64,000 nucleotides of DNA, taken from assembly GCF_900110885.1 (NCBI RefSeq), contig NZ_FOFJ01000021.1:1-64000 (forward strand). Reading direction: 5' to 3'. The stretch's first letter is position 1; the number at the start of each line of letters is the position of its first letter. Below the pieces are notes generated by a model. The model saw only the letters and a program-made list of their open reading frames with translations, made no database searches and was not told the origin of the DNA. Of the stretch, positions 6,661-40,765 are shown piece after piece. This DNA comes from Azotobacter beijerinckii (lineage in GTDB: Bacteria > Pseudomonadota > Gammaproteobacteria > Pseudomonadales > Pseudomonadaceae). The translations under genes were made by a program, and so were the position numbers.

Positions 6661-7206
6661 ATGAGTTCCCTGAGTGTCTACCGTGACGACCATCCCGCCC
6701 AGCCCTACAAGATCCTCAACCATGGCGAGGACATCGCCGCCACCCTGGCCAAGCTCGGCGTGCGTTTCGAGCGCTGGCAGGCCGAGGCGCCGATCGCCCC
6801 CGGCGCCAGCCAGGAGGAGGTGCTCGCAGCCTACCGCACGCAGGTCGAGCGGCTGCAGGCCGAGGGCGGCTATGTCGCCGTCGACGTGGTCAGCCTGACC
6901 GACAGGCATCCGCAGAAGGACGAGCTGCGCGCCAAGTTCCTCGACGAGCACACCCACGGCGAGGACGAGGTGCGCTTCTTCGTCGCCGGGCGCGGGCTGT
7001 TCTCGCTGCACGTCGGCGACGAGGTGTATGCCGTGCTCTGCGAGCGCAACGACCTGATTTCGGTGCCGGCCGGCACTCGTCACTGGTTCGACATGGGCGA
7101 GCATCCGCACTTCGTCTGCATCCGGTTGTTCAACAACCCGGAAGGCTGGGTTGCCACGTTCACCGGCGATCCCATCGCCCACCGTTTTCCCGAGCTGGAA
7201 GACTGA
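6661..7206 (+). CDS. mtnD: acireductone dioxygenase
   Basis: MtnD oxidises the acireductone of methionine salvage to the keto-acid precursor of methionine (iron form) or an off-pathway product (nickel form). The 181-residue cupin has the metal ligands in [13 protein letters not shown] (two His and one Glu, about residues 97-103) and a further His in [10 protein letters not shown]. An AAGGAG site precedes the ATG. The gene ends one base before mtnC starts, so translation is probably coupled. Confidence 0.94.
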
Positions 7207-29422: not shown

Positions 29423-30487
29423 CTATCGGGTGGGATCAACTACCTCACCAACTCGTCGATAAACAGTGTCCGTCAGCTGTTCACTGCTATGGCCAAGCAG
29501 GCGACTGGCAGCGCTCAAATCGTCAATTTCGCTGGCTGCTTTCGGCCGGATGTCTCTGAACTGAAACTGCCGGATGCGCTGATCTAGATCGCCATTTCCG
29601 TTCTCGGCTGCTTCGGTTGCCGCTCTGGCTCTTGCATCATCCCAGCGAACTCTGAGCATCTGGCTGGACACCCGCATTCCGTTCTCGGTAGCGATCAGAA
29701 AGGGCGTCAGGTGGGGTTGGTGGCGCTCGAGCAGGCCATCGATGAACTGGCCAAGGCCGGTCTTCTTGCCATCGATGACGAGTCGGATGCGCAACTTCTT
29801 GGCTGTCTTGCTCTGGCCTACCAGCAGGAAGTCACCGGCAATTGCGCTGCGCTTCATGGCCAGCACGTCTGCAGGGCGTTGGCCGGTCAGGTAAGCCAGA
29901 TCCATCGCATCGCGTAATTCGGGCGCTGCTTTCCCGTATACCGCGTCCCATACGTCCTGGGCGGCATAGTAGTCGCGCGGTTTCTCCTTGTTCCTGCGCA
30001 CGCCAGCTGCTGGGTTCTCCTTCTCGGTAAGCCCCCACTCGCGTGCGATGTTGAAGATGTGCGAGAGCAGGGCAATCTCGCGGTTCGCCCGGGTCTTGGC
30101 TGATCGCTTGTCGCGGTACTGAGCAATGACGTGCGGGGTAATGGCGTCGATTGGGGCATATTCAAACACTGGGCGCAGCTGCTTCAGCTCAGCCAGGTTG
30201 TCGCGCTGCGTCCTAGGCGCCTTGGTGGGGATGATTTCGCGCTCATAGCGGTCAAAAATGGCGCCCATCAGGTTCGCAGCGCGCGGCAAGGGCTTGCAGT
30301 CCAGCTCGGCCCACTTGCGCTTGGCCTCGTCCAGGTCGGTACCAAGAGGGATTTCCATGCGTTTCCCCATGGCATCCACGCCGTTGTAGTAATAGCCCAC
30401 CCACTGCTTTCCATTTTTCATGGTGCGGATGCGCCGGATCATTCGTGGAGGGAGGTCTCGGTTATCGGGGGATTTCGGGCGCATCAA
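29423..30487 (-). CDS. int: prophage tyrosine integrase
   Basis: The 354-residue tyrosine recombinase has a basic N-terminal arm-binding region (residues 10-60), a core-binding SAM-like domain (about 75-165, THPVIAQYRD-type helices) and a catalytic domain with Arg in LTGQRPADVLAMK (about 205), Lys in GQSKTAKKLRIR, FRDIRPKAASE (the usual His-x-x-Arg with Arg in the first position, seen in many phage integrases), LGHSSEQLTDTVYRRVG with His and the nucleophilic Tyr. It reads toward tRNA-Cys and ends 60 bp from the terminator, consistent with insertion there. Its start overlaps the DUF4224 stop (ATGA). Confidence 0.93.
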   Translation of the reverse strand: MMRPKSPDNRDLPPRMIRRIRTMKNGKQWVGYYYNGVDAMGKRMEIPLGTDLDEAKRKWAELDCKPLPRAANLMGAIFDRYEREIIPTKAPRTQRDNLAELKQLRPVFEYAPIDAITPHVIAQYRDKRSAKTRANREIALLSHIFNIAREWGLTEKENPAAGVRRNKEKPRDYYAAQDVWDAVYGKAAPELRDAMDLAYLTGQRPADVLAMKRSAIAGDFLLVGQSKTAKKLRIRLVIDGKKTGLGQFIDGLLERHQPHLTPFLIATENGMRVSSQMLRVRWDDARARAATEAAENGNGDLDQRIRQFQFRDIRPKAASEIDDLSAASRLLGHSSEQLTDTVYRRVGEVVDPTR

Positions 30488-37363: not shown

Positions 37364-37636
37364 TTAACCCCTTCTGCCGCCAATGGCGATGCCGGCACGG
37401 GCGGCGATGAGCTCGATCTCCAGCGGCTTGGCCTCGATACCTGCCTCTCTCGCCAGGGACGCCAGGTCGTTGGCGCTGCGCCGGCGGGTGAGGCTATTCA
37501 CGCGGATCAGGGCGATCAGCTGCTTCTCGCGGGCAATTTCGGCCCGGCGGTTCGGCAGGTTGAGGGCGGGTGAATTGCTTCGCTCAGGCGCAAAGCTCCA
37601 CGGCTCTACGCGAATTGGTTCGGTTATGGCGATCAT
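37364..37636 (-). CDS. phage early protein of unknown function
   Basis: The 90-residue basic protein (MIAITEPIRVEPWSFAPERS, later REKQLIALIRVNSLTRRRSA) has a helical middle. I do not recognise it. It overlaps the upstream gene by four bases and belongs to the leftward early chain. Confidence 0.55.
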   Translation of the reverse strand: MIAITEPIRVEPWSFAPERSNSPALNLPNRRAEIAREKQLIALIRVNSLTRRRSANDLASLAREAGIEAKPLEIELIAARAGIAIGGRRG

Positions 37637-37851
37637 GCGGCTACGTCCTCGCGTTGCATGGTGCTCTTCGTGCCCCCGGTCTTGGCGAGCCTGGCCAGCG
37701 CATCGATATGGCGCCGCCAGTCGGCTGCGTTCACGGCGTCGATGCCGATCGAGTTGCCAGCCTGCAGCCAGGCCAAGGCGGCGTGTGGGGTTCTTTCGGG
37801 TATGCGCTTCCGGGCTACCTGCTTGCGCCGGCCCGGATCAATGTCCTGCAT
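37633..37851 (-). CDS. first gene of the leftward early chain, unknown function
   Basis: The 72-residue protein starts MQDIDPGRRKQVARKRIPER with AAGGAG twelve bases upstream. It has ALAWLQAGNSIGIDAVNAADWRRHIDAL, a helix-turn-helix-like arrangement. It is the most upstream gene of the overlapping chain that runs to about 36865, so its promoter should lie at 37852-37935. Confidence 0.55.
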   Translation of the reverse strand: MQDIDPGRRKQVARKRIPERTPHAALAWLQAGNSIGIDAVNAADWRRHIDALARLAKTGGTKSTMQREDVAA

Positions 37852-37935
37852 GGCGGTTCTCCTTTTGTCGTGCACATGGGGAAGCCTCCTCGGGAGAGGT
37901 GGCTTTCCAGTGGGTACGGGATATGGGGGGGGTGT

Positions 37936-38143
37936 GGCCGGTTACGCTGGCCGGGCGGGCACTCTGTCGCCGCTGGCGTGCCTGCCAGTTAGGATGGGGG
38001 GGTGCCCCCTTGGCTTGCAGATTATTCGAACCGACTGCGCGCTTTGCCGAGTGGCCATGGAGCCTGGCGTGGCCATGGAACCCGGCGTGACCACCTTCGC
38101 AATGGCTGGCTAACGCTGACGGCATGCCGATCTGCCGACGGAG
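37936..38143 (+). ncRNA. candidate structured RNA element, copy A
   Basis: Copy A begins with the hairpin GGCCGG-TTACG-CTGGCC (with one G-U pair in the plus-strand RNA), then GGCAC/GTGCC around a 15-base loop (37958-37982), a G/C-run hairpin, GCAG/CTGC around 38017-38038 and the terminal loop ATCTGCCGA (38130-38138). It contains an extra 19-base internal duplication (GTGGCCATGGA) not present in B and C. The G-U pair favours a plus-strand transcript. Confidence 0.45.
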
Positions 38144-38263
38144 TTAATAGCGTAGTCCCAAGACCAAACACACAGCCAAGCGGCTGGTTGAATGCAGAGC
38201 CCTTGCAGGATTTGTCCCTGGCAGGCCCAAAAATGAGTGAAGACGTAGTGAGAGGAGGGGTGT

Positions 38264-38450
38264 GGCCGGTTACGCCGGCCAGACGGGCACTTCGTTGTCG
38301 CTGGCGTGCCTGCCAGTAGAAGAGGGCTGAAATCCCTTGACTTGCAGATTACTCAAACAGGCTGCGCGCCTTGCCGGTACCGTGAGTCCCGGCGCGGCTA
38401 CCTATCAATAGCCGGCTAACGCTGCCTGCATACCGATCTGCCGACGGTAG
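38264..38450 (+). ncRNA. candidate structured RNA element, copy B
   Basis: Copy B has the hairpins GGCCGG-TTACG-CCGGCC, GGCAC/GTGCC (15-base loop), GCAG/CTGC (38344-38365), GCCGG/CCGGC (38373-38393), CGGCTA/TAGCCG (38395-38414) and TACCG-ATCTGCCGA-CGGTA (38431-38449). Loop sizes match those in copy C. The sequence between stems has diverged while the pairing is kept. Confidence 0.5.
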
Positions 38451-38462
38451 CCTCGATTATAT

Positions 38463-38481
38463 GCAAATAATAATCATTATC
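38463..38481. promoter_or_regulatory. Fur-box-like sequence between repeat copies B and C
   Basis: These 19 bases, ending AATAATCATTATC, agree with the classical Fur consensus at 16 of 19 positions by hand alignment. They lie in an AT-rich island unlike their surroundings, 30 bp before copy C. No adjacent gene is available to regulate except the candidate RNA copy. Confidence 0.45.
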
Positions 38482-38509
38482 AATATTTATTGAAGATTGG
38501 ATAGGAAAG

Positions 38510-38696
38510 GGCCGGTTACGCCGGCCAGGCGGTCACTCTGTCGACATCTGCGTGACTACAGACTGATTCCGGTGGTTTGACTTCCGTGTCTTGCAGATTA
38601 CTCAAACCGACTGCGCGCCTTGCTGGGGTCGTGTCCCAGCGTGGCCCCTAGCAGTGGCCAGCTGACGCTGACGGCGTGCCGATCTGCCGACGGCAT
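38510..38696 (+). ncRNA. candidate structured RNA element, copy C
   Basis: Copy C has the same hairpin order: GGCCGG-TTACG-CCGGCC, GTCAC/GTGAC (15-base loop), GCAG/CTGC (38593-38614), GCTGGG/CCCAGC (38622-38640), TGGCC/GGCCA (38642-38660) and TGCCG-ATCTGCCGA-CGGCA (38677-38695). Compared with B, three stems carry paired substitutions that preserve base pairing. Confidence 0.5.
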
Positions 38697-38891
38697 TGAA
38701 ATAATAGCCAGGTGCCGGTATATCGCCAGTCTCGAGTTAAACACAGGATATTGCGTGCTGGGTGATCTTGGGCCTGCTCAGAGGGGGATGCCGAGCAGCA
38801 TTGGTGGAGTGGTCTGGCCGGAGCCAATCCCGGCATAGGCGGGTTTCTTTCCTTCCGCCGCTGGGTAGAAGTCGAGCCTTGGCGGGCGTAT

Positions 38892-39059
38892 TCAGATCAC
38901 TCCCCGATGCCGCCCCTTTGCGGCTACCTCCAGCTTGCGTTGTGCTAGAACCGCGCGCAGTGGGTCTGGAGCTGAGCATCCTTGCCCTCCTTCTGCCTTC
39001 GCCTCCCTAGCTGCCTGCAGGCATTCCCGCAGGTTCTGGCGTGGGGCTTTTTCGTCCAT
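38892..39059 (-). CDS. 55-residue phage protein
   Basis: The frame MDEKAPRQNLRECLQAAREA ends AAKGRHRGVI. A perfect AGGAGG stands six bases before ATG 39059. It overlaps the end of the upstream gene by 53 bases in another frame. Basic, helical, function unknown. Confidence 0.55.
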   Translation of the reverse strand: MDEKAPRQNLRECLQAAREAKAEGGQGCSAPDPLRAVLAQRKLEVAAKGRHRGVI

Positions 39060-39441
39060 GGTGGCCTCCTGATTGGTTGGGCGCCGTGGCACACCTCACG
39101 TTGCCTGTGAGCCGGACATCGTCGGAGTGAAGGCTGTTCGAGCTTGGAATCCTCTCCAGCACGTGCCAGGCATCGCCAGGCTCGACCGTGATCGGGCCGA
39201 TGTGGACGATGCGCCGGCCATCGACGTCGATGACGACTTTGGGGCGCTCCAGGGTCTCGCCGCTGGTGTTGACCGCGGTTGCGGAGATCCAGCTGTCCCG
39301 GGAGGCATCGATGACTTCCAGGTTGTGTAGGGTGGTGTCGGCTGCCTTGGCTTCGTGGGTGACCAGGGTGCCGGCGGCCAGGATCATCAGGGTCGCAGTA
39401 GCAGCTGCCCTGGCAGATTGCAGGGCTTCGGTCATGTTCAT
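39007..39441 (-). CDS. exported phage protein of unknown function
   Basis: The 144-residue protein has a signal peptide (ARAAATATLMILAAGTLVTH then EAKA) and a beta-rich mature part (ATAVNTSGETLERPKVVIDV, GRRIVHIGPITVEPGDAW). AAAGGAAACACCC precedes ATG 39441. An Ig-like or FxLYD-type extracytoplasmic domain is possible but unproven. It may be a lysogenic-conversion gene. Confidence 0.55.
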   Translation of the reverse strand: MNMTEALQSARAAATATLMILAAGTLVTHEAKAADTTLHNLEVIDASRDSWISATAVNTSGETLERPKVVIDVDGRRIVHIGPITVEPGDAWHVLERIPSSNSLHSDDVRLTGNVRCATAPNQSGGHHGRKSPTPEPAGMPAGS

Positions 39442-39866: not shown

Positions 39867-40006
39867 ATTTATTTTGTGCGAAGGCTGCGGCCGGGGATGG
39901 CGCCATGGCTGGGAGGGGAAGGGGCGGGATAGGAGGCGGTAGGAGGGGAGAGGCGGTATTGGCAGAGCAGGAACTGGGTTAGATGCGTTGGGCGTCCTTG
40001 ATTTTT

Positions 40007-40019
40007 ACCCTTTAAGGGT
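40007..40019. promoter_or_regulatory. MqsA-type operator in the mqsRA promoter
   Basis: ACCCTT-T-AAGGGT is a perfect 6-bp palindrome just before mqsR. It lies between a TTGATT -35-like box (39999) and a TTAAAATT -10-like region (about 40019). E. coli MqsA binds a comparable AACCT-N3-AGGTT palindrome, so autoregulation is likely. Confidence 0.65.
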
Positions 40020-40032
40020 TAAAATTGCCTCC

Positions 40033-40344
40033 ATGGAAAAGAAAACTGCTCATTACCCATTGGCTGCCGTCCAGGCCACGATCGACGCCATGGGCGTCCT
40101 GGCCTTTACTGCCACTGCCATTCGTGGCGGTGCCGAGATGGGGCTGACGACGCGCGAGATGCTGGCCGTGCTCGCCGGGCTGACCCGCAGGAGCTTCTAC
40201 AAGTCCATGACCACCTACGCCGATAACACCGTCTGGCAAGATGTCTACCATGCCCCGGTGGATGTTGGGGGGATACGCAAAACGGCCTATATCAAAGTAA
40301 CCCTGCGCGAAAACACGCCAGTGATACAGTTCAAGGAGAAATGA
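40033..40344 (+). CDS. mqsR: MqsR-family toxin (mRNA interferase)
   Basis: The 103-residue protein matches MqsR in length and pattern: TAHYPLAAVQATIDAMGVL, GLTTREMLAVLAGLTRRSFYKSM and the C-terminal AYIKVTLRENTPVIQFKEK. MqsR cleaves mRNA at GC-rich GCU-type sites in E. coli. ATG 40033 directly follows the operator. The antitoxin gene begins one base after its stop region, the usual toxin-first order of this system. Confidence 0.85.
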   Translation: MEKKTAHYPLAAVQATIDAMGVLAFTATAIRGGAEMGLTTREMLAVLAGLTRRSFYKSMTTYADNTVWQDVYHAPVDVGGIRKTAYIKVTLRENTPVIQFKEK

Positions 40345-40345
40345 C

Positions 40346-40765
40346 ATGAGCCACTCTCGTCAGTGTCTGGAGTGCGGCCGCCAAGGCAGCGCTGGCATGC
40401 ACCGCTTTGAAGGCGAAACCCTGCTACTGGACGGCCGCCACACCATCGACAGCATGAGCGGCTGGCGTTGCTCCAGTTGCGGCGTCGAGGAGCTGGATTC
40501 CGACTCCCTCCAGCGATTTGCTGCTGCCAGCGATGCGCTTGTCTTGGCTGAACGCAAAGCGCAGCAGGCCGAGTTGCGCCGCATTCGCCGCAAGCTGAAG
40601 CTCACTCAGAGGCAAGCCGCCGAGTTGACCGGCGGAGGGCACAATGCTTTTTCCCGCTATGAGCGGGGAGAGGCGCAGCCAATGCCTGCGGTAATCAATC
40701 TATTCAGATTGCTGGACAGGCATCCGGAGTTGCTGAAAGAAGTCTCGAAGCCAGCGGCAATGTGA
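40346..40765 (+). CDS. mqsA: MqsA-family antitoxin
   Basis: The 139-residue protein has the MqsA layout: an N-terminal zinc domain with CLECG (residues 7-11) and CSSCG (about 41-45), and a C-terminal HTH (KLKLTQRQAAELTGGGHNAF followed by SRYERGEAQP). The zinc part neutralises MqsR and the HTH binds the operator. AAGGAG precedes the ATG. Confidence 0.88.
   Translation: MSHSRQCLECGRQGSAGMHRFEGETLLLDGRHTIDSMSGWRCSSCGVEELDSDSLQRFAAASDALVLAERKAQQAELRRIRRKLKLTQRQAAELTGGGHNAFSRYERGEAQPMPAVINLFRLLDRHPELLKEVSKPAAM

Follow-up and report, generated by a model that had tools for sequence, protein, structure and literature searches.

Candidate family of phage-associated, pseudoknotted RNAs found as arrays of sibling copies in Azotobacter

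Introduction

What is the gene-free segment that interrupts the small genes of a prophage in Azotobacter beijerinckii, and why is it built from repeats? The window, by which we mean the whole stretch of DNA analysed (64,000 nucleotides; positions 1 to 64,000 of contig NZ_FOFJ01000021.1), had been described in an earlier note as holding three tandem copies of a candidate structured RNA, read on the plus strand and belonging to no known RNA family. We know of few large structured phage RNAs, and many of those lack an assigned function. The RNA examined here has a pseudoknot backed by covariation, probably a fixed start site, more distant homologues for comparison, and natural arrays in which the promoter differs from member to member; it is therefore open to immediate study in nitrogen-fixing soil bacteria that can be cultured. 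An iron-type promoter on a prophage RNA, together with conserved chromosomal copies, would also make the transfer of regulatory RNA between phage and host testable. We read the element as an undescribed phage-associated RNA family that in Azotobacter has expanded to arrays of siblings with their own promoters.

Results

Three copies in a prophage array

The segment contains three diverged copies of one structured element, which lie in register between 37936 and 38693 with pairwise identities of 73-77%, confirming the tandem arrangement claimed previously. All three are assigned to the minus strand and to type I (see below): copy C (38510-38693), which is first in the direction of transcription, copy B (38264-38447) and copy A (37936-38141). 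Their cmsearch scores were 188.7, 193.1 and 169.2 bits, respectively, with model R1, which was built from an alignment (A2) that contains these same copies. Copy A is 22 nt longer than copy B owing to an insertion in the P8 arm, and the spacing between copies is 122 nt (A-B) and 62 nt (B-C). The segment is gene-free, as had been stated, in that no credible ORF covers it.

The small minus-strand genes that flank the array belong to an element with an integrase (29423-30487; PHROG integrase) adjoining a tRNA-Cys gene, and a predicted viral contig (L003) carries all three copies with 100% identity. Behind the last copy (copy A), a hairpin, GGAAAGCCACCTC/GAGGAGGCTTCC, was judged by eye at 37880-37908 (minus strand), followed by the first small downstream ORF on the RNA strand (37633-37851, minus), which has no PHROG match. 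Hairpins resembling the one at 37880-37908, also by eye, trail the last copy in several other prophage and chromosomal arrays. Separately, a pair of small plus-strand genes lies near the array (39988-40762), the second of which has PHROG transcription-regulator matches and by reading resembles an MqsA-type antitoxin.

A long-range domain and an H-type pseudoknot

In the loci that we collected, nhmmer gave 55 distinct matches, some of them from near-identical strains. Three alignments were used. A1 holds 44 of the 55 and omits two matches of L002, L008:1437, all seven of L047, and L048:323; A2 holds 39, additionally omitting L001:3303, L007:1564, L022:1501, L032:1747, L048:575 and L048:904 while including L047:4188; and A3 consists of 57 model matches (54 distinct rows) from 29 sources of our choosing, distant relatives included. 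The fold was derived from RNAalifold on 44 copies and by inspection. Folding of single sequences was uninformative (z of -1.45 for the plus and -1.38 for the minus strand).

The fold and its pseudoknot are established by computation, as are the promoter positions and the distribution given below. Read on the minus strand, the helices follow in the order P5 (long range), P6, P7, hairpins P8 and P9, pseudoknot P3/P2 and terminal hairpin P1. P5, P6 and P7 close a long-range domain that encloses P8 and P9 and contains a conserved internal loop, CGGYAUG / GUUCGAGUA. In copy B, the 5' strand of P5 (38436-38441, minus) pairs with its 3' strand (38344-38349, minus), and among copies this helix varies as GCAGAT/ATCTGC, GCGGAT/ATCCGC, GCGAAT/ATTCGC and GCCGTT/AACGGC. 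The pseudoknot is of the H type, with a P3 of 6 bp, a 1-nt loop, a P2 of 5 bp and a 9-nt loop GGCGACAGA; in copy B it occupies 38286-38317 (minus), where P3, CTGGC/GCCAG (up to 6 bp), crosses P2, GGCAC/GTGCC. In plus-strand writing, P3 appears among copies as CTGGC/GCCAG, GTCTG/CAGAC, GGCTG/CAGCC, GGGTG/CACCC and GAAGG/CCTTC, and P2 varies too. By eye we also weighed a pairing between the 5' end of the RNA and the pseudoknot loop, which we did not retain.

The 3'-terminal hairpin P1 (copy B, 38264-38280, minus; GGCCGG-CGTAA-CCGGCC) is followed by a pyrimidine-rich tail: the 15 nt after P1 are 80% pyrimidine, against 51% in the background. Its loop, CGTAA on the RNA strand, is present in 44 of the 45 copies with the P1 end, in types I and III. 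There are three subtypes, to which the conserved loops are largely common: type I, that of the window copies; type II, with a stem 2 of TCTGC/GCAGA and a first hairpin GGCCG/CGGCC with a different loop; and type III, with, for example, a stem 2 of GTCGC/GCGAC.

In A2, 93.0% of 1581 cells are paired, ranging by helix from 99.5% (P2), 98.7% (P5), 98.3% (P7) and 96.1% (P3) through 91.8% (P1) and 90.0% (P8) to 87.1% (P6) and 83.1% (P9). Changes on both sides occur in 23 of 41 pairs, and 140 cells have changed on both sides, compared with 43.2 in shuffles (0 of 500 reaching the observed count) and at most 18 in slid controls. We also applied a phylogeny-aware null, in which the inferred substitutions of each branch are moved to random columns (our own script on the R-scape principle, 200 simulations). 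Under this null, 12 of the 41 proposed pairs were significant at E ≤ 0.05 in A3 (three each in P2 and P3, two each in P6 and P8, one each in P5 and P9), and four in A2, which was unfitted (three in P3 and one in P2); P1 and P7 had no significantly covarying pair in either alignment. When all column pairs were tested, four were significant in A3, all in P2 (one) or P3 (three), and two in A2, both within P3 or P2. The near-misses in A2 comprised two offset pairs within P3 (E of 0.08) and a P2 pair (E of 0.16); the fifth rank, at E of 0.145, went to columns 134-188, which do not pair in the structure. P2 is the cleaner evidence from A3, because A3 was fitted to a model that contained P3 without P2.

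Stem 2 of the earlier description is one half of an H-type pseudoknot, and both of the crossing helices hold significantly covarying pairs. That description was right in part. Its stem 2 (P2 here) keeps pairing while its sequence changes, as GGCAC/GTGCC and GTCAC/GTGAC in the window and in the type II and type III forms of relatives, and its later stem, GCCGG/CCGGC versus GCTGG/CCAGC, corresponds to P8; P3 and the long-range helix had been missed. The last stem proposed there, TACCG/CGGTA versus TGCCG/CGGCA, lacks support across the family: of 46 copies, 28 form one of its two outer pairs and 14 the other, the outer bases on its 3' side precede the inferred start, and its ATCTGC is engaged at long range with GCAGAT. 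Selection on RNA structure, which had been offered as the simplest explanation, is upheld by covariation in excess of shuffles, slid controls and the phylogeny-aware null.

Promoters and strand

The RNA is most likely encoded on the minus strand, as judged from promoter offset, pseudoknot loop geometry, a sixth P3 pair and the direction of upstream genes. Of the 55 distinct matches, 51 reach the 5' end of the RNA, and 46 of these have distinct upstream sequence. A -10-like box (TANNNT) ends 6-9 nt before the conserved CCGTCGG in 33 of the 46, and exactly 7 nt before it in 25, compared with a mean of 3.5 and a maximum of 9 in shuffles and with 0 of 45 in the opposite flank. Copy B has the best promoter of the region, TTGATA-16-TATAAT (38456-38483, minus; 11 of 12 consensus matches). 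Only one other promoter-like site was found in 37500-39200, also on the minus strand (9 of 12 matches) and inside copy A, against a mean of 0.3 sites in shuffles. For copies A and C, sequence and the offset test point to the -10-like boxes TACGCT (38149-38154, minus) and TATTAT (38701-38706, minus), each 7 nt before the RNA.

A minus-strand reading gives the pseudoknot loops of 1 and 9 nt. This is the usual arrangement of H-type pseudoknots, and the reversed direction would put the short loop across the shallow groove. The possible sixth pair of P3 is U.G in 22 of 39 copies and C-G in 15; a plus-strand reading would turn the 22 into C.A. Among the 11 distant loci that we read, 10 have a nearest upstream gene that runs in the direction of the RNA; the closest call upstream in L102 lies on the opposite strand. 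Promoter position, the geometry of the pseudoknot and the direction of genes around the relatives make it most likely that the earlier note, with the plus strand, read the wrong one. The G-U pair that it saw in stem 1 of copy A does exist on the plus strand; the minus strand gives A.C there, which is a small point against our reading. Wobble pairs do not settle the strand: counted as plus/minus, those of P2 (0/3), P3 (8/10) and P6 (7/12) lean minus and those of P1 lean plus (4 G.T, 2 A.C), and the raw tallies of P5 and P7 lean plus almost entirely through pairs dropped later.

Promoters differ among the siblings of one array. The promoter spacer of copy B contains a Fur-box-like site, GATAATGATTATT (38469-38481, minus), with one mismatch of 12 to GATAATNATTATC, which we take to be the Fur consensus. 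By sequence match (two mismatches or fewer), putative sites of this kind occur in the promoters of 9 of the 46 distinct copies, compared with a mean of 0.4 and a maximum of 2 in shuffles, and three of the nine are single copies beside an ABC-F gene in three species (L051, L054, L059). Further inverted repeats, for example CAGCCGCTTGGCTG and CTCCCC-GGGGAG, were seen by eye near -40 in other promoters.

The 3' end of the RNA is uncertain, because few tails are terminator-like and such sites are not in excess: a terminator-like T count is reached after P1 in 6 of 45 tails, leaving 39 without it, and the region has two terminator-like sites, not above shuffles (mean 1.1).

Distribution in Azotobacter

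Homologues exist beyond the window locus, in prophages and at conserved chromosomal loci. All four Azotobacter genomes examined carry the RNA, in 9, 4, 16 and 5 copies (34 in total; E ≤ 1e-4), with the largest arrays comprising seven copies (L001). It occurs in the early regions of prophages (the window, L001, L046, L050 and L056-L058; L053 shares genes with this group) and at two conserved chromosomal sites. One of these, present in three species, lies between tRNA-Val and thrS, with the RNA divergent from thrS (L052, L055, L060; thrS by reading); the other, in four species, lies upstream of an ABC-type, ABC-F-like ATPase gene (L049, L051, L054, L059; Pfam for L054). A further locus, L061, was assigned to none of these classes.

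In G002, an IS66-like insertion (by reading; L057:9399-11708) splits an RNA array, with copies on either side. Near a full copy in L046, a second, partial match (6995-7031; 22 bits) to the 3' part of the model is perhaps a remnant.

Distant relatives

Model R1 found full-length relatives in at least 7 genomes of four other genera (E ≤ 1e-7; 398 Pseudomonadaceae genomes), and a denser scan of a single genus (71 candidates per genome) added two more members, G227 and G184. Counts from the genome scans are lower bounds, the scans of family, order and class having scored 6-7 candidates per genome. In the scan of the family, 33 genomes matched R1, 22 of them only at E of 3e-5 to 0.1; we inspected four of those 22 (L077-L080) and could neither accept nor firmly exclude any of them. 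Beyond the family, a match in another family of the order (G965; 34.8 bits) represents at least 1 of 21 genomes of that family, and one in a more distant family (G718; 24.4 bits) was accepted by eye; other weak matches at the level of order and class were not accepted. L086, the most distant relative (24.4 bits), owes its acceptance, by eye only, to P5 and the pseudoknot being kept. Here (L086:918-1723) the RNA lies between tRNA-Met and tRNA-His, the match ending at 1646 and tRNA-His starting at 1647. Several candidates were rejected as chance matches: L045, inside coding sequence by reading; L101 and L110, within genes on the other strand; and L087 and L096.

The distant copies are single and have phage-type neighbours (by reading, genes of repressor-, RecT- and exonuclease-like kinds; by Pfam, a PD-(D/E)XK nuclease in L070), with LuxR-type genes near the RNA in L073, L076 and L100. 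The RNAs of G147 and G084 were found with the same scores on predicted viral contigs (L082, L084). In these relatives the RNA is without an evident promoter of its own and sits between the genes of a mostly co-directional operon; immediately behind the RNA of L108, an ORF call is on the opposite strand. It lies 8-18 nt after an ORF in L073, L074, L075 and L108, and 11 nt after csrA in L070.

Discussion

A standalone RNA or a leader

We infer, as the leading mechanism and with about even confidence, a standalone structured RNA that acts in trans. Each copy would be a small RNA gene on the minus strand with its own sigma-70-type promoter, and the predicted transcript would start at the conserved CCGTCGG and end at or soon after the GC hairpin P1 and its pyrimidine-rich tail. 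The resulting RNA of about 185-190 nt is expected to fold into the long-range closed domain and the H-type pseudoknot, and may act by binding a protein of the host gene-expression machinery. We propose such binding because constancy sits in the loops and the folded core while the stems drift; constant loops in a drifting scaffold suggest binding of a protein or ligand rather than antisense pairing. In Azotobacter, the phage gene would have been multiplied into sibling arrays with control sites that differ from promoter to promoter and include a Fur-like one; the dose of RNA would thereby follow conditions such as iron supply. This mechanism is favoured by the fixed start, the terminal hairpin, the separate promoters and the chromosomal copies that have no co-directional gene close by. 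In six of seven loci at the two conserved chromosomal sites, 334-2751 nt separate the RNA from the next co-directional ORF, which at the thrS site lies beyond the opposite-strand tRNA-Val; in the seventh (L052), an ORF call at +136 overlaps that tRNA-Val. Two unsettled loci have ORFs at +240 (L061) and +76 (L053).

It is also possible, although we doubt it on balance, that the RNA is a cis-acting leader of the phage early (recombination) operon, which would modify RNA polymerase (put-like processive antitermination) or sense a ligand or protein; the Azotobacter arrays would then be stacked promoter-plus-leader units feeding one operon. This alternative draws on the tight fit of the RNA between ORFs in distant phages, where an ORF follows it by 9 nt (L100, LuxR-type), 24 nt (L073, LuxR-type) or 44 nt (L076, csrA) and the match in L100 ends directly before a ribosome-binding site. 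It also draws on the scarcity of T-runs after P1 and on the conservation of the core in a riboswitch-like manner. In the Azotobacter prophages an ORF follows the array within about 60-95 nt, and the tight spacing there and in the distant relatives fits a leader equally well. However, downstream genes vary, including LuxR-type genes, csrA, unrelated small ORFs and, in L086, tRNA-His, so that there is no fixed regulated gene. The six chromosomal loci without a co-directional ORF within 334 nt, and the separate, differently built promoters of array copies, also argue against it.

The standalone RNA can be extended to a broader proposal, which we put forward tentatively and regard as rather doubtful in its full form. 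The RNA would represent a pseudoknotted, phage-encoded class that is so far undescribed, occurs in temperate phages from at least two families of Pseudomonadales and binds conserved host machinery for transcription or translation. In Azotobacter it would have been retained at fixed positions in the chromosome and amplified to arrays with as many as seven siblings controlled by different switches, iron among them.

Less probable explanations

It is improbable that the element acts as DNA, that is, as a site of recombination, replication or packaging or as a mobile repeat, with hairpins that are important in the single-stranded form. The presence of several tandem copies in mobile elements, in numbers that vary between relatives, would be consistent with this, but the promoter position is fixed relative to the block, the pseudoknot has one polarity and the copies are mostly co-directional with genes.

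A decoy was among the roles suggested earlier, and the form of it that we considered is an RsmZ-like sponge, in which the RNA would titrate a CsrA-like protein encoded nearby. Same-strand csrA-like genes do lie within 3 kb of the RNA in 7 of 11 distant loci, at 24-237 nt by match ends in L070, L071, L072, L074 and L076, at 0.7 kb in L108 and at 3 kb in L100 (Pfam CsrA for L072, L074, L076 and L100). Against this, none of the 16 Azotobacter contexts searched contains a csrA-like gene, no RsmY/RsmZ-type Rfam model matched the window, 37800-38800 or the eight distant loci searched, and ANGGA is absent from 4 of 7 distant rows. We consider a CsrA sponge very unlikely, because GGA, of which RsmY/RsmZ-type sponges expose several, is rarer than expected: 1.3 occurrences per Azotobacter copy (range 0-3), versus 3.6 in shuffles. 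A decayed protein gene can be dismissed almost outright: ORFs cross the segment on paper, but no frame is open in more than 14 of 39 copies, distances between invariant blocks occur in all three frames, and changes follow base pairs.

Relation to known RNAs

The assertion that no known family is involved agrees with our searches, in which no Rfam 15 model reached its gathering threshold for the element. Across the whole window, Rfam 15 gave three tRNAs only; in 37800-38800 at E ≤ 1 it gave one match to an miRNA model, far below its threshold; and in eight loci of distant relatives at E ≤ 0.05 it gave tRNAs only. The PrrF model matched neither the window nor 37800-38800. Neither the window copies nor the L070 RNA gave a distant-mode blastn match among 50,697 phage records and 72,556 plasmid records, nor did the L073 RNA match the phage records, and no description of this RNA was found in the titles and abstract openings covered by our literature searches. 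The general kind is known, both as phage-associated structured RNAs and as arrays of sibling small RNAs; the family and its promoter-per-copy arrays appear to be undescribed in the literature and databases searched.

Sibling small RNAs include PrrF1/PrrF2 of P. aeruginosa and ArrF of A. vinelandii. For A. vinelandii, RsmZ1-7 are also named in PMC7366521. The likeness lies in several related RNA genes, some adjacent, and in a Fur-like site at some promoters; the prophage RNA differs in being without an Rfam match, 185-190 nt long, pseudoknotted, GGA-poor and prophage-borne, with siblings that differ in promoter class. The put RNA of HK022 is a structured phage RNA in an early operon. It resembles the present RNA in being co-directional with early genes, a placement that fits the prophage loci but not the six chromosomal loci noted above; the Azotobacter RNA far exceeds it in size, has both a pseudoknot and a long-range domain, and in chromosomes also has copies that lie apart from genes. 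With riboswitch-like leaders, the RNA shares a conserved folded core and, in L100, a position beside a ribosome-binding site, whereas it has no constant downstream gene and forms tandem arrays with their own promoters. Phage tRNA clusters can carry stable RNAs without an assigned function, such as RNA C and D of T4, to which the RNA between tRNA-Met and tRNA-His in L086, the one such locus seen, is likened by position alone. Type III antitoxins of the ToxI kind are short tandem pseudoknot repeats before a ToxN-like gene. In the window, no PHROG matches the gene that follows the array, and the repeated unit is about 187 nt long, with its own promoter.
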